DNA of 35,129 bases from a virus, in the IMG/VR virus record IMGVR_UViG_3300042519_002267, positions 1-35,129 of that record; one strand, given 5' to 3'. Shown here in pieces: positions 4,152 to 32,437 of the stretch (position 1 is its first letter; every line of letters starts with the position of its first letter). Below the pieces are notes generated by a model. It searched no databases. It was given only the letters and a program-made list of their open reading frames with translations, and had not been told where the DNA came from. The position numbers and the translations under genes are program-made.

Positions 4152-5879
4152 ATGGAAATCAACGAACTTCCCATCAACGCGGCCCCAAATTCCGCCCTTA
4201 ACATTGAGCTGTCTGACGGCCAACGTGCTACGCTTGCATCATTGCCGATTCAAAGCGCAGTCACTAATGCACTCGCCCTAAAGGCCCCGCTTGCCTCGCC
4301 TGCGTTGACCGGGACTCCGACTGCGCCTACCGCGGCAACGGCCACGAGTACCACGCAACTCGCTACGACGGCTTTCGTGCAACAAGAACTAGCCGCCGGC
4401 GGATCTACTGCCAGGTCTTTAGTGGTGTCGGTGCGCAATCAGTCGGGTGGGACTATGGCTGCGGGCACCGTGGTTTACCTCAACGGCGCGACGGGGAATC
4501 TTCCCACCATTGCAAAGGCTTTAGCGACCTCAGACGCCACCTCAGCGCAGACCATCGGGCTTGTTCAGACCAGTATCGCCGACAATGGAACGGGACTGGT
4601 CGTCATTCGAGGCATCGTCAGCGGGCTCAACACCCAATCATTGACCGAGGGGCAACAGCTTTATCTGTCGTCAACCGTTGCCGGCGCATACACTACCACA
4701 AAGCAGTACGCCCCGGATCACTTGGTCTATGTAGGCATTGTCACGCGAGCACACCCGACGCTTGGTTCTATCGAGGTTGCAATCCAGAACGGATATGAGA
4801 TGGACGAGATCCACGATGTCTCGGCGCAGAACCCGACGAACGGCGACGTGCTGCGCTACAACTCGGCAACGGGCTTGTGGGAGAAATCCACCCTCGGCAC
4901 CGCCGCTGTGCTTAACGCCGGATCTTCTGCCGGAAATGTGCCCGTCCTCGACGCCAACGGCGACCTAGTAGGGCCAATTATCGGGCGCATGATGTTGGCG
5001 TCGGATAACGTGGTGCCCGCGTTGGGCGAGCAATGCACCGTGGTTAATTCGCTCACGGCACCCACGGTGATCGAATATCGTTTGGGCGATGGGGTTACGG
5101 TGAGGGGAAAGCCCTCGTTGACGGGTCTTATTAAAGTCGGAACCGCCTACATCGGCGGCGATTTTACAGGTGATACCCGTGGCGATTACGCGGTGGATAT
5201 TCAATCCTATCGGAACGGGCCAACAGTGGTCGCCAGTGGATATTACGCCAGTGCGTTGGGCTACGGTAACACCGCCAGTGGCGATTCCTCCAGTGCGATT
5301 GGTAAAGGTAACACCGCCAGTGGCGGTCTCTCCAGTGCGATTGGTAACTATAATACCGCCAGTGGCAATTCCTCCAGTGCGATTGGTTACTATAACACCG
5401 CCAGTAACAGTATCACCAATGCGATTGGTAACTATAATACCGCCAGTGGCGATTCCTCCAGTGCGATTGGTTACTATAATACCGCCAGTGGATATTACGC
5501 CAGTGCGATTGGTAAAGGTAACACCGCCAGTGGCGGTCTCTCCAGTGCGATTGGTTACGATAATACCGCCAGTGGCACTAGTTCTGTCGCCCTAGGTTTT
5601 GCGACTAGGACTTCTATAGATAACACGTTAGAGATTGGGTCTTGGAACACTACATCTATCCGATCGGGCAGCATCCGCGTACACCAGACCGGCATGGTGG
5701 CCATGACCGTGCAAGCCCGTAGTACCGAATACGCGGATACCGCCGCACCCGCAGGCAGCGAGCCGGATAACACTCTCGCCCGGGGTATGTTTGCTATCCG
5801 CCGCAACGGTTTACAATTCATCCTCGACTACAACGACGCGGGCACGGTGAAGAACATCGTCCTTGGCACTGCCGCATAA
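4152..5879 (+). CDS. Tail fibre with YadA-like head repeats
   Basis: Protein of 575 residues. Residues 45-80 carry the PLASPALTGTPTAPTA...TTQLATTAFVQ signature of lambda- and P2-type tail fibres. Residues about 85-215 form a Thr/Gly-rich beta region. Residues 358-487 are nine or so 14-residue units with consensus GNTASGxxSSAIGx, the sequence type of YadA/trimeric-autotransporter head domains that fold as left-handed beta-rolls. A C-terminal domain (about 490-575) ends in a beta-rich tip. The protein is inferred to be a trimeric receptor-binding fibre. A sulfotransferase gene follows directly. Confidence 0.85.
   Translation: MEINELPINAAPNSALNIELSDGQRATLASLPIQSAVTNALALKAPLASPALTGTPTAPTAATATSTTQLATTAFVQQELAAGGSTARSLVVSVRNQSGGTMAAGTVVYLNGATGNLPTIAKALATSDATSAQTIGLVQTSIADNGTGLVVIRGIVSGLNTQSLTEGQQLYLSSTVAGAYTTTKQYAPDHLVYVGIVTRAHPTLGSIEVAIQNGYEMDEIHDVSAQNPTNGDVLRYNSATGLWEKSTLGTAAVLNAGSSAGNVPVLDANGDLVGPIIGRMMLASDNVVPALGEQCTVVNSLTAPTVIEYRLGDGVTVRGKPSLTGLIKVGTAYIGGDFTGDTRGDYAVDIQSYRNGPTVVASGYYASALGYGNTASGDSSSAIGKGNTASGGLSSAIGNYNTASGNSSSAIGYYNTASNSITNAIGNYNTASGDSSSAIGYYNTASGYYASAIGKGNTASGGLSSAIGYDNTASGTSSVALGFATRTSIDNTLEIGSWNTTSIRSGSIRVHQTGMVAMTVQARSTEYADTAAPAGSEPDNTLARGMFAIRRNGLQFILDYNDAGTVKNIVLGTAA
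5223..5612 (+). repeat. Tandem 42-bp repeats inside the fibre gene
   Basis: About nine in-frame 42-bp units encode the 14-residue YadA-like repeat. Units are nearly identical except at the two codons after the AS(G) position (GD, GG, GN, NS, GY, GT variants). Because the period is a multiple of three, another forward frame is also open here (5170-5595); that is a by-product. Such repeats can expand or contract by recombination, altering fibre length. Confidence 0.9.
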
Positions 5880-5886
5880 GTAGCCA

Positions 5887-6696
5887 ATGAAGTTCATTTT
5901 TAACACCTCAATGCCGCGTAGTGGTAGCGAACTCCTCCAAGTCGCTATCCACCAGAATCCTCGTATCTACGGGTCGGCCACCTCACCCGTGCTGGAGTAC
6001 CAGTTCGCTATGCGCGCTAACTACGATTTGCCCGAGGTTAAGAGCCAAGACCCCCTCCTCATGCAGAAGGCGTTCTTGTCAGCCTGCAAGGGCGTGGCCG
6101 AGGGATACTATTCGGAGCTTACTACCCGCACCATCGTCTGCGATAAAAACCGGGGTTGGTCGCATTATTACGAGTGGGTGGAACAGTGGTCCGCCGAGCC
6201 CAAGATGATCTGCATGGTGCGCGACCTTCGCTCGGTGATAAGCTCTATGGAGAAAGCCTACCGCGCCAATCGCCACAAACCAAGCGGCCCAGATAACCCT
6301 GCCCAGTTGCAGGGCATGACGGTGGGCCAACGCGCCCAGCATTGGCTTTCTTCCCAGCCCGTAGGTCTCGCCCTACAGCGTACCGCCGATTGTTTTCAGC
6401 GCGGGGTGGCAAAGAACCTCTTGTTTATCCGCTATGAGGATTTCACCCGAGACCCACAGGGGGAGATGAATAAGGTTTACGACTTCATTGGGGAGGAACG
6501 ATTCACCCACGATTTCAGCAATCTGAAAAAAGAAGTGTACGAGGACGACTCCCACTTCGGCGTTTATGGAAGCCACCGTGTTGCCCCGAAGGTTACGCCC
6601 TCTAAGGCACGGGACTGGGAGGACGTTCTACCAAAGGAGGTCGCGCAGGCGATTCGCCAAAACCACAACTGGTACTTTGAGACCCTCGGCTACTAA
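5887..6696 (+). CDS. PAPS-dependent sulfotransferase-like protein
   Basis: Protein of 269 residues. Residues 6-17 hold a 5'-phosphosulfate-binding loop of the PRSGSxLL type. Residues 84-91 (VCDKNRGW) correspond to the DKxP region of sulfotransferases. Residues 111-121 (VRDLRSVISSM) match the 3'-phosphate-binding VRDPRxxxxS motif. The family moves sulfate from PAPS to hydroxyl or amine groups of glycans, proteins or small molecules. No membrane segment is visible, so it is probably cytosolic. It is 7 bp downstream of the fibre, so it may modify fibre residues or host-surface glycan precursors (inference). The acceptor is unknown. Confidence 0.85.
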   Translation: MKFIFNTSMPRSGSELLQVAIHQNPRIYGSATSPVLEYQFAMRANYDLPEVKSQDPLLMQKAFLSACKGVAEGYYSELTTRTIVCDKNRGWSHYYEWVEQWSAEPKMICMVRDLRSVISSMEKAYRANRHKPSGPDNPAQLQGMTVGQRAQHWLSSQPVGLALQRTADCFQRGVAKNLLFIRYEDFTRDPQGEMNKVYDFIGEERFTHDFSNLKKEVYEDDSHFGVYGSHRVAPKVTPSKARDWEDVLPKEVAQAIRQNHNWYFETLGY

Positions 6697-6767
6697 CCCT
6701 TTTCCCTACCACACGGCTTACCGGAACGCAAGTGGCGGGGCCTTTTAACTATCCGGTCCAAAACAGC

Positions 6768-6995
6768 ATGTCCCCCATCGCCCTCACCTCCCCGAAAGTT
6801 GTCTCGCCAGCCATCGTCGTGACAGAAGTCACCATCGAGCGTCTCGTCGATCTACCCAATAAAAAAATCGTCCGCGCCTTCTGCAAAGAACTGCCGCAAC
6901 CGATCAACCTTTGGGAAGGTGAAGCCTACGACGCCATCGGCAACTGGACCCAAGCGCAAGCCGAGGTCCGCCTCGCTGAAATCCTCAACGCCTGA
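6768..6995 (+). CDS. Small protein of the fibre/protease region, unknown
   Basis: Protein of 75 residues from ATG 6768; an in-frame GTG at 6732 would add 12 residues but has no better signal. The sequence is a Val/Ile-rich N-terminal strand region, then WEGEAYDAIGNWTQAQAEVRL, which resembles small fibre-adjacent or chaperone-like phage proteins. It ends 4 bp before the protease gene. Function not recognised. Confidence 0.55.
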   Translation: MSPIALTSPKVVSPAIVVTEVTIERLVDLPNKKIVRAFCKELPQPINLWEGEAYDAIGNWTQAQAEVRLAEILNA

Positions 6996-6999
6996 ATAA

Positions 7000-8142
7000 A
7001 TGGCCCGCCGGTTCAGCACCACTGGGGTTAAGTCAAGGGGACCCAAGACTACCGACTTCCCGTTTAGTGCGGGAGTAATCCCAACTACCCGCTCAACCGG
7101 CGGGGAAACCTCCGTGTCCACCGTGTACGATGAGGCCGTCTCGACCGTGAGTTCGGCAGGTGTGATTACGGAAGGCATGGTCACAACGTCGGCAAGTTTG
7201 GAGGGGGTTGTCCCTATGCGGATAAATTTGACCCCTTCGGTTGCTACTCTCAACACGACGACAGGCCAACTTACGCGGGTGACGAGTGGGACCGCGCTAG
7301 TAAACGTGTCTATTGATAAGTTCGTTTTGCAGGTGAGCATACCAATAGGCTTTGATAGTACTGCCTCAACTTCAACAGTGGTAGGCTTCGCTTCCGGATC
7401 TTTAGCCAAGCATTGCTACGACTGGTTCATCGCTGCCGTTGCGGGCAAGACGGCATCGGACACCACGCAGAACTTTCTCTCAGGCAGCGCCCGCAGCGCG
7501 ACGATCTGGGCCAACGCCGTTGACCTATCTTGCATCATCACAGGTGCTGCGAACGGCTGGCAGCAGGGAGCTTTGATCGCCCCGCGCTTCGCAGTGGTCG
7601 CCTCACACGTCGGCGTCGACACCAGTTACACTTGCCGCGACAACTCGGGCAATGCGGTCACACGCACTGTGACGGGTTCAACCAGCTTAGGCAGCGACCG
7701 CACGCTCGTTTGTTTTGCTTCCGATTTCACGGGTATCACGCCCGCGAAGATACTGCCCTCGACTTTTGCCAACAAGTACAAGCCCAACCAACTCCTTCGC
7801 CAAGGCGTGCCAGTCATGAAGTGGAAGCGTATGGGCGCAGCTTGGAGGGTCGGCATCGGGGTTGGCAATGGGGGCACAGGGCTTTCCCACACCCGCCCCG
7901 CTGAGCTAACCCCATGGTACATGGAGTGGGAAGGAGGCGACTCTGGCTCGCCCTTCGGCACCGTCATCAACGGCAACTTTGTGTTCCTCGGCAACGCATG
8001 GACAGGCCCGGGCACAAACGATGACGGGGGCAGCTTTATCGCCTCCAATATCTCGGGGCTTGTTTCAGCGATGGACGCGCTGGTAGCCAGCTCATCTTCG
8101 ACTCTCAGCTACGCGGATTTGTCGGGATTCAACACCTACTAA
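7000..8142 (+). CDS. Trypsin-like (chymotrypsin-fold) serine protease in the tail/lysis region
   Basis: Protein of 380 residues. Residues about 74-116 resemble a bacterial Ig-like (BIG2) segment. The C-terminal half carries a chymotrypsin-fold triad: His203 in FAVVASHVG (compare TAAHC), Asp233 in SDRTLVCF (compare DIALLKL), and Ser315 in GGDSGSPF (compare GDSGGP). No signal peptide is evident. Trypsin-like proteases are uncommon as phage tail-module products; possible roles are degrading host surface protein during entry, processing a virion protein, or aiding lysis. The stop overlaps the next start (TAATG), coupling it to a second peptidase-like gene. The fold call is motif-based and the substrate unknown. 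Confidence 0.75.
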   Translation: MARRFSTTGVKSRGPKTTDFPFSAGVIPTTRSTGGETSVSTVYDEAVSTVSSAGVITEGMVTTSASLEGVVPMRINLTPSVATLNTTTGQLTRVTSGTALVNVSIDKFVLQVSIPIGFDSTASTSTVVGFASGSLAKHCYDWFIAAVAGKTASDTTQNFLSGSARSATIWANAVDLSCIITGAANGWQQGALIAPRFAVVASHVGVDTSYTCRDNSGNAVTRTVTGSTSLGSDRTLVCFASDFTGITPAKILPSTFANKYKPNQLLRQGVPVMKWKRMGAAWRVGIGVGNGGTGLSHTRPAELTPWYMEWEGGDSGSPFGTVINGNFVFLGNAWTGPGTNDDGGSFIASNISGLVSAMDALVASSSSTLSYADLSGFNTY

Positions 8143-8501
8143 TGAAGCCCAAAGCACTGCCACCCTCCTTCACCGTCGCCCCGCATGAAATCGACAGGAT
8201 GCTGCGCGAGGGCTATCCACTCGTGGCCATCCTCGGCACCGGCTCGATGCAACCCTACATCCCCGCCGGCGAAGGCCGCGTGGCCTGGTGCATGACCGAG
8301 CGGTGCGATTTTAATTTACTAGGGAAGGGGGACCTCGTAGTTTTCCGCACGCCCTCGGGCAACATCCTCCACCAGCTCGCGCAGCTCACCGCCGCGGGCT
8401 GGATCACCTCTGGCCTCCACAATTCCAAATACGACAATACCCGTGTCACCGCCGAGATCTTCGTCGGGCGCGTGGTCAAAACGTACCTTTTAAAACCATG
8501 A
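8142..8501 (+). CDS. S24/S26 signal-peptidase-fold protein
   Basis: Protein of 119 residues. GTGSMQPYIP (Ser35) matches the GxSMxP nucleophile box of signal peptidase I and LexA-type folds. GDLVVFRTPSGNILHQL places His77 where ER/archaeal-type (S26B) signal peptidases have a His base instead of Lys. HNSKYD with Asp98, and IFVGRVV, match the later boxes. There is no transmembrane anchor, unlike true signal peptidases. It is coupled by TAATG to the trypsin-like protease and by ATGA to the following membrane protein, so it may process one of these (inference). Confidence 0.7.
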   Translation: MKPKALPPSFTVAPHEIDRMLREGYPLVAILGTGSMQPYIPAGEGRVAWCMTERCDFNLLGKGDLVVFRTPSGNILHQLAQLTAAGWITSGLHNSKYDNTRVTAEIFVGRVVKTYLLKP

Positions 8502-9199
8502 AATCCCAGCGTGGAGCCGCATCACTTGTAATCATCGGCCTTATCGCCCTCGTTGGCGTACTTGTCGCGCCAAAGGTGGTGCCGATCCTCAACGGCGACT
8601 CACGCCGTGCGAAGGATGGCCAAGCGACCACTGCCGCGCTCAACGCCGCCGCCAACGCACCCGCCGCCGCAAACACCGCATCGGCTCAGGTCATCGGCCA
8701 AGCCGCCGCCCGCCTGCCGGACTCGCCCGCCGCCTCGTTTATCCGCAACGAGGTGCCGATCATGCTCGCCCGTGGTCCTGTCCCTGCTGCCGACGAACTC
8801 CTAGCCGCCGAAAAACGCCTTAACGCCTACCTCACAGGCCAGCTTGACGAGGCCCGCAAGCTGCATTCTAGCGCCTTAACACAGGCGGGTGACCTCCGCG
8901 CCGCCTTGGCCGATGCACAGGCCGCAAAACGCAACGCTGACGACGCTATCAGCACCGCCGCCGCCGAGAAGATCGCCGCCAACCGCGCCGCGCTCGGGAT
9001 CGGGGTCTTGGCCGCGTTGGCCCTCGCTGCGTTTGTCTGGGTGAAACTTCAAGTGGGCGGGTTGACCTCAACCCTTTCTAAGATCGTGCCAACGCTCGAC
9101 GCACACGGCACCGACTCAATTTACAGCGACCTATCAAAGCGTTTCGACGCCACGGAAAAACGCCTTATCCACCAACTCCGCGCCAAGCTCACGAAATGA
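8498..9199 (+). CDS. Two-helix membrane protein with coiled coil, lysis-region candidate
   Basis: Protein of 233 residues. A short basic N-terminus is followed by a hydrophobic helix at about 7-26. An Ala-rich coiled coil covers about 95-160, a second transmembrane helix lies at about 165-184, and the C-terminus is charged. The N-terminus (RGAASLVIIGLIALVG) resembles a pilin-like or signal-anchor sequence. It overlaps both neighbours by ATGA junctions, one of them a holin-like gene, so it may belong to the lysis module (spanin- or pinholin-like) or be a substrate of the upstream peptidase. Family not recognised. Confidence 0.6.
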   Translation: MKSQRGAASLVIIGLIALVGVLVAPKVVPILNGDSRRAKDGQATTAALNAAANAPAAANTASAQVIGQAAARLPDSPAASFIRNEVPIMLARGPVPAADELLAAEKRLNAYLTGQLDEARKLHSSALTQAGDLRAALADAQAAKRNADDAISTAAAEKIAANRAALGIGVLAALALAAFVWVKLQVGGLTSTLSKIVPTLDAHGTDSIYSDLSKRFDATEKRLIHQLRAKLTK

Positions 9200-9420
9200 A
9201 TTTCTCCGCAATCGCCGCAGAGCTACTCCAAGACCGCACGATAACAGTCGGCGGAATGTTCTCATTCCCTACTTTCTTCGGCGGAATCACGCTAGCCGAG
9301 GCGCACCAGTGGGTCGGCTTTTACGCCGTCTGCATTGGTGCTGTCGGCTCGACCCTCGTCGTGATTTACACGGCGCTCAAGATCGTGCGCATGAGTCGGG
9401 ACAAAAACGCCAAGGAATGA
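9196..9420 (+). CDS. Holin-like small membrane protein
   Basis: Protein of 74 residues with an N-terminal soluble part, a hydrophobic stretch at about 38-63 (WVGFYAVCIGAVGSTLVVIYTALKI) and a charged C-terminal tail (RMSRDKNAKE). Size, topology and position at the end of the late operon fit a phage holin. It is translationally coupled on both sides (ATGA). No endolysin was recognised next to it, so the holin call is tentative. Confidence 0.6.
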   Translation: MNFSAIAAELLQDRTITVGGMFSFPTFFGGITLAEAHQWVGFYAVCIGAVGSTLVVIYTALKIVRMSRDKNAKE

Positions 9421-22853: not shown

Positions 22854-23344
22854 CCGACATAATCAATGGGCAAGTTCTAGCTGAAATGCTAGGCGTTACC
22901 ACTCGCCACCTTTCCAATTTGGAGAAGTCAGGAGCTGTGGTTAAAGTTGGGCGCGGGGGCTACGACATGAGGGCGAGCGTTCGGTCATTTTGCAATTACC
23001 TGCGGGCTCAAAATTCGCAATCCGACGAAGGCGATTACGAAGCCGACAAGGCTCGAAAGATGAAAGCGGACGCAGACCTTGCCGAGCTGCTTACGGCGAA
23101 AGAGGGTCGCAAGCTCGTCGAGATCGCCAAGATTGAGCGGAGGTGGGCAAACGCATTAAGCGGGCTGCGCGGAAAGTGCATGGCGATGCCTGCGCGGATT
23201 GGCCCGATGGTGGTGATTGCAAAGAGCGCGGGCGATGCGACGAAGCTAATCGAGTCCGAACTTCGTGACGCATTCAAAAGCATCGCGGACGATGGGCCTG
23301 ATGACGGCGCGGAAAGCGAAAGCGAGGAGGGCGAAGCAGAATGA
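22850..23344 (+). CDS. Terminase small subunit (Nu1-like)
   Basis: Protein of 164 residues from ATG 22850, which overlaps the HNH stop; an in-frame ATG at 22835 adds five residues. The N-terminal winged helix (NGQVLAEMLGVTTRHLSNLEKSG ... YDMRASVRSF) matches Nu1/gpNu1-type cos recognition. The central helical region and acidic C-terminus (ESESEEGEAE) suit oligomerisation and TerL contact. Directly upstream of TerL (ATGA). Confidence 0.85.
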   Translation: MTDIINGQVLAEMLGVTTRHLSNLEKSGAVVKVGRGGYDMRASVRSFCNYLRAQNSQSDEGDYEADKARKMKADADLAELLTAKEGRKLVEIAKIERRWANALSGLRGKCMAMPARIGPMVVIAKSAGDATKLIESELRDAFKSIADDGPDDGAESESEEGEAE

Positions 23345-26300
23345 GCCAAGCCATTAAAAAGTATTGCCGCGCCAACGACAAAGCCGCGCTGGTTCGGGCG
23401 TGGAAGTTTCTGCGTTGGCCGATGAAGATGACCGTTGCCGAATGGGCGGAGAAATACCGCATCCTCTCGCGTGGTGCATCGTCGGAGCCGGGTAAATATC
23501 GGTGCGACCGCGTGCCGTACCAGCGCGAGATAATGGAATCCTTCACCGCGCCGGATGTTCGGGAAACGGTCCTTTGCATCGCAAGTCAGGTTGGGAAGGC
23601 ATTAGACATTGAAACGCCAATACCTACGACCAAAGGCATGGTTCGAATGGGAGAATTAAAGCAGGGTGACATCGTTTTTGATGAGAGCGGCAATCCGTGT
23701 CGCGTGACATTTGCAACGGAGGTAATGCACGGCAGGGAATGTTTTGAAGTTAAGTTTTCGGACAACTCAAAGCTTATTGCCGACGCAGACCATTTATGGA
23801 CAGTTGACGATGAGCGCGACACAAGAAACCCCAAGCGAATCACTGCAACAACCTCGCACCTTAAAGCAATGGGCGTAGTCTGGGGCGGGAATCGTAATCG
23901 CTTTGCCGTTCCGGTGTGCGCTGCGGTTGAGCATAAACACAAAGAGCTTCCGATTGATCCATATGTTCTAGGTGTTTGGCTGGGAGACGGGCACTCTTAT
24001 TCGACAAACGTGACAATCCATGAGGCAGACATGGAGATTATGGAGCACGTTAAGGCGCGTGGATATTCTGCTGACATTGTTGATCGAACAGATACCGGAG
24101 TTCTCACGGTTCGTATGGGGCATGACCGACCTGCGCACATTTGCGGGCGCGGCCATGACTTGCGCGTGACCGGAAAGACTAAGGCTGGACATTGCGCGGA
24201 ATGCGGCAGGCTATCGGCGGTTGCTTCATTGCACGGCAAGCCAAGGGGTGACAGCGTAAAGAAAGAACTAAGAAGCCTTGGCATCAGGCTGCGCGATCTT
24301 GGATTGAAGGGCGAAGGCATGGCGAAGCACATCCCCGCAGAATACCTTACCGGAAGCGTTAAGCAGCGGCTTGATCTACTACGTGGGTTAATGGACACGG
24401 ACGGCACCTGCGACAAGCGAGGCGGCGCATCATTCACCGCAACGTCAAAGCCTTTATTTGATGGTTTTTGCGAGTTGATTTGCTCGCTTGGATACAAGGC
24501 CAGCGTAAAAACCAAACGGCCATTTTGCAGATACAAAGAGCGCAAAGTTTACGGCCGAATTGCTTACATCGTAAATATCAGGGCGTATTCCGAAACGCCT
24601 ATTTTTAATCTTAAAAGAAAGCGCGAGCGACAAGTGAGCATGGCGGGCGGGCGTACAAGCGAGACGATGCGGAGGCGCATAATCTCGATTAACCCTGTCG
24701 CGTCCGTTCCAGTGAGGTGCATTCAGGTTGACAGTCCATCTTGCCTTTACCTCGCCGGACGCGACCACATACCTACGCACAATACCGAGCTGATGAACAA
24801 CCTTATCGGCTACATGATTCATGCCGACCCGTCGCCTATCTTGGTAAAATACCCGACGCTTGACGCATCAAAGGGTTACTCGAAGGAGAAGCTTGATCCA
24901 ATGATCCAAGACACGCCTGTATTGGCTGCGCTGATACAAGACGCGAGGTCGCGTGACAGCGGAAACACGATTTTGCAAAAGAGCTTTCCCGGTGGTTTTA
25001 TCCGAATCGCGGGGGCCAACTCACCAAGCGGTCTGAGGCGGGCGTCGTGCCGCGTCGTGCTACAGGATGAAATCGACTCAGACCCATTTTCAGCAGGCGA
25101 GGAAGGCGACCCATGCGCGTTAGCGGATCGACGCGCCTCCAATTTTTCAAACGCGGTCAAAGTCAAGATGTCCACGCCTACGGTCAAGGGCCGCTCAAAG
25201 ATTTGGGCGCTGCTAGAGGATTCCGACTTTCGGACGTGGCGAGCGATTTGCCCGCATTGCAACAAGGCGCAAGAGCTGACATGGGCGGGCGTGCGTTGGG
25301 ACAAAGACGCCGAGGGCAAGGCGATGCCAGAAACCGCCTATTACTTGGGCGAGTGCGGTTGCCGGTGGACTGACCTTGACCGGCAACGTGCAATCGTTCG
25401 CGGGCATTGGCAGGCGCGGCAACCGTTCAAGGGGAGGCGCGGCTACCACTTGAGCGGCCTTTACCGGCTCATGGGTCACAAGCCTCAGTTCACATCCATG
25501 CTCCATGAGTTCGCGGTAGATTTTCTGGAATCGAAGGCGGGCGGGTCGGAGCGCATGAAGCCTTGGATGAACACATTTTTGGCGGAGCCGAGCGAGGAGG
25601 AATTTGAAAAGCTCGACGAAAAATCCGTGCTGGCACGCGCCGAGGACTACAACCCTGAGGAGCTGTTGCCTGCGGGCGTGCTGCGCATCGCGGCGGGTGC
25701 CGACGTGCAGGATGACCGAATCGAGTGTGAGTTCGTTGGATACGGCGAGGGCGAGGAAACGTGGGGGCTCGGGTATTACGTCATCCACGGCGACACGCAG
25801 GCGGATAATGTGTGGGAGGAGCTGGACTTGCTCCTTGCGAAAACCTTCACGCACCCTAGCGGCAAAATAATGGGCGCGGTGACGTCGTTCATCGATTCGG
25901 GGGCAAAGCAAGATCGCGTTTTACAGTTCACCGGCCCGCGCCGGTCGCGTGGGATTTTCGCGTCAAAGGGCCAAAACACCATCGGCAAACAAATTCCGAT
26001 CATGCAACGGAAACCGTCGATTAACAACAAGCGCAAGGTACATCAGTGGATGGTTGGCGTCACGGCGGCCAAAACGGTGATTTATTCGCGCATAATGCTG
26101 CCGGTGCCGGGCGCGGGCTCGATGCACTTCCCGAAAGGCCACGGGTACGACGCGAGGTTTTACCACCAGTTGACGAGTGAAAAGCGGATGACGCGGTACA
26201 GCCACGGGCGGCCGTATTACATTTACGAGGCGGGCAACCGGCGCAACGAGCCGCTAGACATTCGCGTGTATGCGCTCGCGGCACATCGGCGCGTTAACTT

Positions 26301-26529
26301 TGACAGCGTGGCGATCAAGGCGGAAATGGCGGCGATTGTTAAGCCGGTAGATGAGACAGCGCCAGCCGTCAAGGATTCCTTGACGGCTGAGCCTGAGCGC
26401 CTCGCCAGCAACATCATCGTCGTTGAGCGCGCGCCAATCGAACGTTCCGTTGCGCAGTTACCCGCTTACGTCCCCATGTCGCAGCGAATTAGGGATGGCG
26501 GTTCGGGCGAATCCATGTTCAAAAGATAA
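23341..26529 (+). CDS. terL: Terminase large subunit (GpA type) interrupted by an intein
   Basis: The precursor is 1062 residues; removing the 395-residue intein (87-481) leaves 667, the usual GpA size. The N-terminal AEWAEKYRILS ... YQREIMESF opens the ATPase. Walker A is split as ASQVGK (81-86) and TE (482-483). Walker B is VVLQDE (572-577). The C-terminal nuclease begins with AGADVQDDRIECEFVGYGEGEETWGL. GpA terminases cut at cos and drive packaging. The extreme C-terminus (from LPAYVPMSQRI) resembles the tail of the cassette 4 protein; in lambda this end of TerL contacts the portal. Confidence 0.95.
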   Translation: MSQAIKKYCRANDKAALVRAWKFLRWPMKMTVAEWAEKYRILSRGASSEPGKYRCDRVPYQREIMESFTAPDVRETVLCIASQVGKALDIETPIPTTKGMVRMGELKQGDIVFDESGNPCRVTFATEVMHGRECFEVKFSDNSKLIADADHLWTVDDERDTRNPKRITATTSHLKAMGVVWGGNRNRFAVPVCAAVEHKHKELPIDPYVLGVWLGDGHSYSTNVTIHEADMEIMEHVKARGYSADIVDRTDTGVLTVRMGHDRPAHICGRGHDLRVTGKTKAGHCAECGRLSAVASLHGKPRGDSVKKELRSLGIRLRDLGLKGEGMAKHIPAEYLTGSVKQRLDLLRGLMDTDGTCDKRGGASFTATSKPLFDGFCELICSLGYKASVKTKRPFCRYKERKVYGRIAYIVNIRAYSETPIFNLKRKRERQVSMAGGRTSETMRRRIISINPVASVPVRCIQVDSPSCLYLAGRDHIPTHNTELMNNLIGYMIHADPSPILVKYPTLDASKGYSKEKLDPMIQDTPVLAALIQDARSRDSGNTILQKSFPGGFIRIAGANSPSGLRRASCRVVLQDEIDSDPFSAGEEGDPCALADRRASNFSNAVKVKMSTPTVKGRSKIWALLEDSDFRTWRAICPHCNKAQELTWAGVRWDKDAEGKAMPETAYYLGECGCRWTDLDRQRAIVRGHWQARQPFKGRRGYHLSGLYRLMGHKPQFTSMLHEFAVDFLESKAGGSERMKPWMNTFLAEPSEEEFEKLDEKSVLARAEDYNPEELLPAGVLRIAAGADVQDDRIECEFVGYGEGEETWGLGYYVIHGDTQADNVWEELDLLLAKTFTHPSGKIMGAVTSFIDSGAKQDRVLQFTGPRRSRGIFASKGQNTIGKQIPIMQRKPSINNKRKVHQWMVGVTAAKTVIYSRIMLPVPGAGSMHFPKGHGYDARFYHQLTSEKRMTRYSHGRPYYIYEAGNRRNEPLDIRVYALAAHRRVNFDSVAIKAEMAAIVKPVDETAPAVKDSLTAEPERLASNIIVVERAPIERSVAQLPAYVPMSQRIRDGGSGESMFKR
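23599..24783 (+). other. Class 3 intein with LAGLIDADG endonuclease in TerL Walker A
   Basis: The intein has 395 residues, inserted between Lys and Thr of the Walker A. It begins with Ala (ALDIETPIPT) rather than Cys or Ser, and ends HIPTHN followed by Thr+1. The class 3 WCT triplet is present: Trp67 in DADHLWTV (block B position 12), Cys374 in PVRCIQV (block F position 4), and Thr393 in PTHN (block G position 5). Two endonuclease motifs are VLGVWLGDG (123-131) and LLRGLMDTDG (260-269). Between them a Cys/His cluster (C182, H186, C199, C202) forms a likely zinc finger. Splicing is needed for packaging ATPase activity. Confidence 0.93.
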
Positions 26530-31402: not shown

Positions 31403-32437
31403 ATGCCCATCGTTCAATTTTACAACGCAGAGCCGCTCCAACTCACCAACGTCGATGCAGAAAACGGCATCCTCCGCAACGTCGCGCTCATGTCGATTGG
31501 CGAGGCTGCGGGCCACGACTGCCGCGTGGACTTGGGCACCTTGCAAGGGCTCTTTCAGTTAAGCCAAGGCAAGAGCGTAAAAGCCTTTTTAAACCACTCC
31601 TACAACCCCGCGCCAACGGAGGTCGTCGGAGTATTCTCGGGCATCTACATCGACGCCGAAAAAGGTGTTCTCCGCGCCTCGCAATTCAAGGCGCTCGAAG
31701 CATTCAAGAACCACAACCGCCAAGCCTACGACACGCTCTTTGAATTGTCGATTACCGCGCCGGAATCTTTCGGCGTTTCCGTCTCGATTTACCACGATTT
31801 AGAGGACGCGGAAGACGGAGGAAGCGCATTCATCCGCCCGACATCTATCGAGTCAGCCGACTTTGTTTCCGCGCCCGCAGCAAACAAAGCTCTTTTCAGC
31901 AAGGAAACACCGCTTGACGTATCCGAAAAACAAATACACAACGAAATCACCACCGCTTTACCTGTAGTTGAAAAATCACCACACGCCCACTTTATGAGCA
32001 CACTCAAAGACATCCATTCCGCCTTCGGAAAAAATCCCGAACACGTTGCCCGCGCCGTCAAATTCGCTGCCGAAAACCCCGAGGCCAAACCCGAGGATGT
32101 TATTGACGCGGTAAAAGATCAGCTTTCCGAAGAAGACCAAGCCGCCCTGATTGCCGAGCGTGACGCTCTGGTGATTGAGGTCGCCGCTCTTAAAGCCGAG
32201 ATTGCCGCGCTCAAGCCAGACGCGGAAAAAGCCGCTGACCTATCCAAGAAAAACAGCGAGCTCGCCGAGCAAGTCGCCCAGCTTTCCAAGCGCACCGCAC
32301 GTTTCGGTATCCGCCCTGTTAATACCGGAGCTCACGAAGCAAAAGAGGTGAAGTCTATCACCCGCGCTGAGTTCTCCGCGCTTAACCCCGTTGCTCAAGG
32401 CCAGCACGTAGCAGCGGGCGGCAAAATCACCGCCTAA
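31403..32437 (+). CDS. Prohead protease fused to scaffold
   Basis: Protein of 344 residues. The protease part has His65 (KAFLNHSYN), GVSVSI with Ser126 or Ser128, and FVSAPAANKALFS (154-166), matching herpesvirus-assemblin-like (S78/U35-type) prohead proteases. The C-terminal half (about 190-300) is a coiled-coil scaffold (EIAALKPDAEKAADLSKKNSELAEQ), ending in an Ala-rich tail. It would shape the procapsid and then cleave itself and the coat. Confidence 0.85.
   Translation: MPIVQFYNAEPLQLTNVDAENGILRNVALMSIGEAAGHDCRVDLGTLQGLFQLSQGKSVKAFLNHSYNPAPTEVVGVFSGIYIDAEKGVLRASQFKALEAFKNHNRQAYDTLFELSITAPESFGVSVSIYHDLEDAEDGGSAFIRPTSIESADFVSAPAANKALFSKETPLDVSEKQIHNEITTALPVVEKSPHAHFMSTLKDIHSAFGKNPEHVARAVKFAAENPEAKPEDVIDAVKDQLSEEDQAALIAERDALVIEVAALKAEIAALKPDAEKAADLSKKNSELAEQVAQLSKRTARFGIRPVNTGAHEAKEVKSITRAEFSALNPVAQGQHVAAGGKITA

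Follow-up and report, generated by a model that had tools for sequence, protein, structure and literature searches.

Tail-borne depolymerases that breach sugar capsules are well known in phages. Chymotrypsin-fold proteases are also already known there: Rhizobium phages 16-3 and RHph_TM3_3_14B encode HtrA/COG0265-like proteins that are annotated as trypsin-like proteases, lie 3' of lysis or tail genes and are related to DegP by sequence. Among signal peptidases, a Ser/His pair is what the SipW/archaeal/ER subfamily (MEROPS S26B) normally has, as opposed to the Ser-Lys dyad of the S24 proteases LexA and lambda repressor. Trypsin-like proteases have further been tied to lysis: LypA and LypC are reported to be required for it in the release of gene-transfer agents (PMC13236601).

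Two peptidase-like genes and their neighbours

The window, i.e., the whole stretch of 35,129 bases analyzed here, is a single virus record (IMGVR_UViG_3300042519_002267). Besides a tail fibre, it encodes a portal and RecT and YqaJ recombinases, and relatives of its major head protein carry a coat-protein annotation. A first-pass annotation had singled out two adjacent genes as a coupled pair of serine peptidases, the first specifying a trypsin-like protein of 380 aa (7000..8142) and the second an S26-like protein of 119 aa (8142..8501). Their coordinates, strand and frames were correct, and the stop of the first gene does overlap the start of the second by one base, at the junction TAATG. That the two represent different serine-peptidase folds, and are both unusual as phage genes, agrees with the profiles described below and with the model of the S26-like protein. 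The genes of this region are:

4152..5879, + strand: tail fibre with YadA-head repeats (phrog_4209 tail fiber, 3.8e-14; PF05658, 3.3e-17)
5887..6696, + strand: sulfotransferase, cargo between the fibre and the trypsin-like gene (PF13469, 1.9e-15)
6732..6995, + strand: 87-aa protein directly 5' of the trypsin-like gene
7000..8142, + strand: predicted trypsin-like (chymotrypsin-fold) protein, 380 aa, with His203, Asp233 and Ser315 (family profiles)
7000..7389, + strand: N-terminal part of the trypsin-like protein, probably Ig-like (Big_2-like) and faster evolving (PF22359; profile versus structures; dN/dS)
8142..8501, + strand: SipW/archaeal-type S26-like peptidase domain, 119 aa, with Ser35, His77 and Asp98, membrane segment absent (TIGR02228, model, hydropathy)
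8498..9199, + strand: membrane protein, coiled in its middle, whose gene overlaps the S26-like gene as ATGA (hydropathy, homologue)
9196..9420, + strand: small membrane protein, 74 aa (hydropathy 1.99)

The fibre gene heads the module that holds the trypsin-like gene. Searches of Pfam and PHROGs with the 87-aa protein returned no matches. Downstream of the S26-like gene, the protein encoded at 8498..9199 has hydrophobic segments near residue 10 (by hydropathy) and near residue 165 (by eye) and a homologue in the record of locus L003 (84%), while the 74-aa protein has a homologue in the record of L008 (91%) and no match in PHROGs; its size and position make it a possible holin. Since no endolysin was recognized by eye in the window, the label "lysis module" for these genes rests on holin-like neighbours, and a role of the membrane module in lysis is put forward here as a prediction.

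Two further window genes were noted by eye. Immediately behind its Walker-A lysine, a 1062-aa terminase-like protein (23341-26529) appears to be split by an intein-like stretch (ALDIETPIPTTKGMVRMGELKQGDIV...). The protein at 31403-32437 resembles a prohead protease, and head maturation therefore need not involve either the trypsin-like or the S26-like enzyme.

A family of trypsin-like phage proteins

Queried with the window's trypsin-like protein alone, Pfam, PHROGs, NCBIfam and the PDB gave no peptidase match; tblastn of this protein against phages and plasmids yielded no matches at E<=10. The protein and the S26 alignment were also scanned against 84,980 species, one genome per species, and neither detected a relative. 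In viral contigs, one close relative was found (79%; record G001, locus L002), and the pattern EW.GGDSGSP recovered the same record together with two chance matches. A degenerate DNA scan of viral contigs for G-D-S-G-[S/T-like]-P-x4-I-N-G returned 29 stretches. Twenty of these scored E<=1e-3 with the final 11-member family HMM, which itself contains members; the 20 include the already known G001 relative (as L036) and one sequence (L061, E 5.9e-5) that is probably a separate secreted trypsin. The remaining nine failed the threshold and were rejected as members, L046, L048 and L051 resembling other trypsin-type proteins by eye and the rest chance matches.

The members are phage proteins of about 400 residues which, beyond the serine motif, have in common GSL..H, 'LI.PRH...A.H', 'D...LD...I.P.K.LP....Y.P' and a C-terminal 'DLS.F'. 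A profile of six members, built without the window copy and its close relative, matched the window protein over almost its full length with E 1.4e-37 (computed for one million sequences), against 8 bits for the best of 2000 shuffled sequences. Since the serine motif had served to choose the members, a second test left out that motif and everything after it; the window protein still scored 6e-24, and the best shuffle reached 12 bits. A second copy in the phage contig L042, which does not have the scanned ING motif, scored 1.2e-41, and both this copy and one in the GenBank record MW202510 were found independently of the motif scan. Judged by these profiles, the trypsin-like protein belongs to a widespread and undescribed phage family.

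None of the 11 members matched PHROGs or the Pfam peptidase models. When PF00089 and PF13365 were run against the window and G001 there were no matches at E<=10, although these models did find matches in 13 and 14 of 14 control genomes. Thus the family is absent from Pfam and PHROGs as searched; for NCBIfam, the search covered the window copy only. We recognized no description of the family in the accessible literature on phage signal peptidases, phage trypsin-like proteases and virion-associated proteases (including the available text of PMC10367356, PMC7824862, PMC10783043 and PMC13236601), a scope outside which most subscription papers fall.

The catalytic residues reported for the window copy, His203, Asp233 and Ser315 (in GGDSGSP), are at the positions given and are conserved across the family. 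In an alignment of nine members made without the serine half (16-24% identity to the window copy, 89% for L002; L055, L068 and the second L042 copy left out), the only invariant columns were His203, Asp233, Pro253 and Tyr260. With the serine half included, GDSGSP and its Ser315 were also invariant, as would follow from selecting members by that motif. The automatic alignment misplaces the histidine of L055; judged by eye, a His farther along in that piece fits.

Comparison with structures suggests a chymotrypsin fold. The 11-member profile had 57 matches in the PDB at E<=10, the best being plasma kallikrein (0.018), with the three catalytic residues aligned. We take 56 of them to be chymotrypsin-fold proteins, two 3C-like ones included; the exception, a Hoc-like phage protein, was matched by the N-terminal part. 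All 27 matches of the motif-blind profile were to trypsins, kallikreins or their relatives (best E 0.15). Singly these matches are weak, and it is their uniformity that would count for the fold. Since an AlphaFold model built from two sequences was unusable (mean pLDDT 29), the fold assignment rests on profiles whose single PDB matches are weak. On this basis, the trypsin-like protein is predicted to be a chymotrypsin-fold protease.

Like the S1-like proteases of clan PA (PF00089/PF13365), the family has its catalytic residues in the order His-Asp-Ser. The serine is embedded in GDSG[SG]P, the His is preceded by 'LI.PRHV..A.H' and the Asp is followed by 'D...LD'; where the family profiles match chains of trypsin and kallikrein, the catalytic residues are aligned with one another. 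It differs from them in leaving the Pfam models unmatched, in the linker GSL..H, in 'P.K.LP....Y.P' after the Asp and 'DLS.F' at the C-terminus, in its probable Ig-like N-terminal part and in its location within phage structural modules. It also differs from the DegP-related proteases of the Rhizobium phages, since hhalign gave nothing for the trypsin-like protein against E. coli DegP and DegQ. The present family, rather than the occurrence of a chymotrypsin-fold protease in a phage, is what appears to be new.

The first-pass annotation had also described the N-terminus as Ig-like, a claim that we retain as probable. The window's N-terminal piece matched the Big-like model PF22359 at E 0.062, and a six-member N-terminal profile, run at E<=10, matched two solved structures, one a surface-layer protein from a bacterium (0.02) and the other a Hoc-like protein from a phage (2.6), both of which we take to be Ig-like. 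The two ends of the protein also evolve at different rates: between the window and G001, dN/dS was 0.059 for residues 190-380 and 0.37 for residues 1-120. Purifying selection on the catalytic half is strong.

The neighbourhoods of the family were compared across loci. In the window, the gene comes after those for a fibre and a sulfotransferase; in G001, it comes after those for a fibre and a sulfotransferase-like protein that matched only PF03567 (0.29). In other respects the two phages are different, having few genes in common, and the coat protein of the window has no match in G001. The fibre of G001 (L002 76-2199) contains many NNQLTSFSG-type leucine-rich-like repeats and has its N-terminus in common with the window fibre (93% over 74 aa). 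Elsewhere, the family gene lies between a baseplate hub (phrog_177) and a wedge (phrog_6) in L044, precedes a major tail protein (phrog_1407) in L041, follows the portal in L068 (related to L041), lies between a terminase and a head-tail adaptor (phrog_332) in L055 and follows a tail spike (phrog_4636) in L063. In the podovirus MW202510, the sole GenBank record found, it is annotated as hypothetical and sits, with start/stop overlap, between a gene annotated as rhamnogalacturonan lyase and fN3. One phage contig (L042 1898-6427) contains two tandem pairs, each of a fibre-adaptor-like gene (by eye) and a family gene, and in L047 (1442-4369) the family domain forms the C-terminal end of a 976-residue protein that appears structural by eye and has no database matches, the PDB offering nothing of note for its N-terminal part. 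Among the neighbours scanned in L042, L047, L056, L060 and L066 there was no informative PHROG; a set of 10 neighbouring or long proteins gave one, a tail spike. Since the identified neighbours are all of tail, fibre, baseplate or head-tail type, the neighbourhoods fit a protein of the virion or fibre module.

We tentatively suggest that the family may be a virion component of the fibre/baseplate module, a proteolytic counterpart of tail-spike depolymerases that would open protein surface layers at adsorption, that can be duplicated together with fibre adaptors (L042) or, as in L047, form the end of a large protein of structural type by fusion. We rank this virion role over fibre maturation, which we consider rather unlikely, and in which the protein would cut the fibre or adaptor encoded just upstream, by chaperone removal or fibre activation, and need not stay in the virion. 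Maturation would agree with the position of family genes directly 3' of genes for fibres or fibre-like proteins (their stop and start overlapping in MW202510, L056 and L060) and with the tandem adaptor-protease pairs of L042. However, the upstream genes are dissimilar across loci and are not recognized fibres in L041, L044 and L055, and in the window the 87-aa gene and the sulfotransferase separate the fibre from the protease. Below both we place an intracellular role, improbable in our view, as a defence, counter-defence or lysis-triggering protease similar to the bacterial CARD-NLR trypsin-like proteases. By hydropathy, the 11 family members have neither a signal peptide nor a membrane segment (the 19-residue maximum is <=1.65), which would suit such a role, as would the involvement of LypA and LypC in lysis. 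However, the proteins of that report have helical CARD, ATPase or nuclease domains (PMC13236601), whereas the N-terminal part of the present family is probably of the beta type, and the neighbours of the family are structural-module genes.

The S26-like protein and its downstream partner

The assignment of the second protein to an S26-like class held up. All seven family members matched the NCBIfam signal peptidase I model TIGR02228, the window copy with E 1.1e-6, and three of the seven also matched the SipW model. Since the window copy's 28.6 bits lie below the curated cut-off of TIGR02228 (51.85), it is filed as signal-peptidase-like and not as an equivalog. The structure prediction that had been proposed as a check gave an AlphaFold model with pLDDT 77, which matched the C-terminal domains of LexA (Z 7.2) and lambda repressor (Z 6.3), E. 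coli signal peptidase I (Z 5.8, rmsd 2.8, 87 residues) and a subunit of the human signal peptidase complex (Z 4.8); Z values under 8 are modest. A search in phages with the S26-like protein returned nothing at E<=1, and a match to the S26-like gene in Rhizobium phage PPF1 was discarded as chance, being antisense to a gene.

The Ser35/His77 pair had been identified correctly, and Asp98, which had been missed, completes the set; all three are invariant in the seven members and align with a SipW-like ORF of the gut scaffold MT835485. That scaffold (L033, MT835485.1) is labelled bacteriophage, yet the SipW-like gene is followed by TasA-like and metabolic-type genes, and by eye it is probably bacterial. 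The His base had been presented as an oddity of the window protein. Since the TIGR02228 matches and the alignment place it with the SipW/archaeal type, this base is expected and is no departure. The protein has in common with SipW/archaeal/ER signal peptidase I (TIGR02228, NF046067) the fold, the SM-box Ser, the GD box, the His, a later Asp and the (I/V)G.V box. It differs in that the first Asp of the KGD box is replaced by Leu92 (in all seven members), in its score below the cut-off, in having no anchor and in being a phage gene coupled to a membrane protein.

An alternative that we regard as unlikely would make the S26-like protein a cytoplasmic autoprotease or regulator of the S24 kind instead of a signal peptidase. 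The model shares its fold with the S24 domains of LexA and lambda repressor, which have the highest Z values, the L017 member matches PF00717 (0.0021) and the window copy is unanchored. In contrast to the S24 enzymes, however, the family has no Lys base but a Ser-His arrangement with invariant His77 and Asp98, TIGR02228 is matched throughout, 119 aa are too short for an additional DNA-binding or repressor domain, and six of the seven intact relatives are anchored. A signal-peptidase-like enzyme thus remains our preferred reading of this protein.

The anchor itself calls for comment. As had been claimed, the window copy is without a membrane anchor (KD 0.67), and it has no signal peptide; yet it is untypical in this respect, since an N-terminal hydrophobic segment is present in six of the seven intact relatives (L004-L008 and L017, L005 reading as L004) and absent only from L003. 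Having neither anchor nor signal peptide, the window copy should be cytoplasmic, where a signal peptidase would not act. The S26-like gene is maintained by selection (dN/dS 0.14-0.27), and by this measure neither it nor the trypsin-like gene is decaying. In L018 (310-475) the S26-like gene survives only as a remnant, which has lost the catalytic Ser and His through an internal deletion; a gene of the 3TM-holin family (PF11351, 3.9e-16) follows immediately.

The stop of the S26-like gene overlaps the next start as ATGA in seven of the eight intact records, L017 being the exception. The gene that follows encodes a membrane protein of the 8498..9199 type in the window and L003, and a 144-aa protein in L004-L008, which in L008 has a weak 3TM-holin match (E 0.29).

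Two probable modules side by side

Eight records were searched whole for both genes: the trypsin-like gene was present in two, the S26-like gene in seven, and the two occurred together in the window only. Likewise, no partner turned up when the S26 loci were scanned with the trypsin-family HMM, or the other trypsin loci with the S26 HMM (these loci being parts of records). The trypsin-like and S26-like genes are therefore not a unit, in disagreement with the coupling that had been claimed. The conserved partner of the S26-like gene is the gene downstream of it, and the trypsin-like gene goes with the fibre module.

Since the pair is unconserved, a two-protease cascade is not indicated. Such a cascade, in which the trypsin-like protein and then the S26-like protein would act on a common substrate, had been suggested from the adjacency of the genes, and their TAATG overlap, intactness and purifying selection would be in keeping with it. 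We nonetheless judge it very improbable, given the co-occurrence in a single record and the blank results of each HMM in the loci of the other family; the overlap that is kept is the one with the downstream gene for a membrane protein. Action of the S26-like protein on the 8498..9199 protein would be the better half of that idea.

With moderate confidence, we propose instead that two modules lie side by side, a virion/fibre module with its trypsin-like protease and a membrane/lysis module with its S26-like peptidase, joined by mosaic recombination; the functions are deduced from sequence and gene context. The trypsin-like protease, a divergent member of its family consisting of an Ig-like N-terminal part and a protease domain, would be carried as cargo of the tail-fibre/structural module. 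Most likely it would become part of the virion, or be attached to it, close to the fibre or baseplate, and would there cut a host surface protein at adsorption or, during maturation, the fibre itself. The S26-like gene would head the membrane/lysis module, its product being made jointly with the membrane protein that follows via the ATGA overlap, and this product would most likely trim the membrane or exported proteins of its own module. In the window, the contact of the two genes is the border of the two modules and is also where the S26-like gene is without its membrane segment; the segment was apparently lost at the recombination boundary at which the fibre cargo was swapped in. The anchorless copy may use another membrane partner or may have turned cytoplasmic.

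The finding is thus the family behind the trypsin-like half, and the pair as a system is not real. If the proposal is true, a tail-module family of trypsin-like proteases would make the breaching of protein layers, or the maturation of fibres, by a protease directly testable in phages. The family profile is an annotation aid for many genes now listed as hypothetical, and the S26-like gene offers a test case for whether phages bring their own signal-peptidase-like enzyme for their membrane or lysis proteins.
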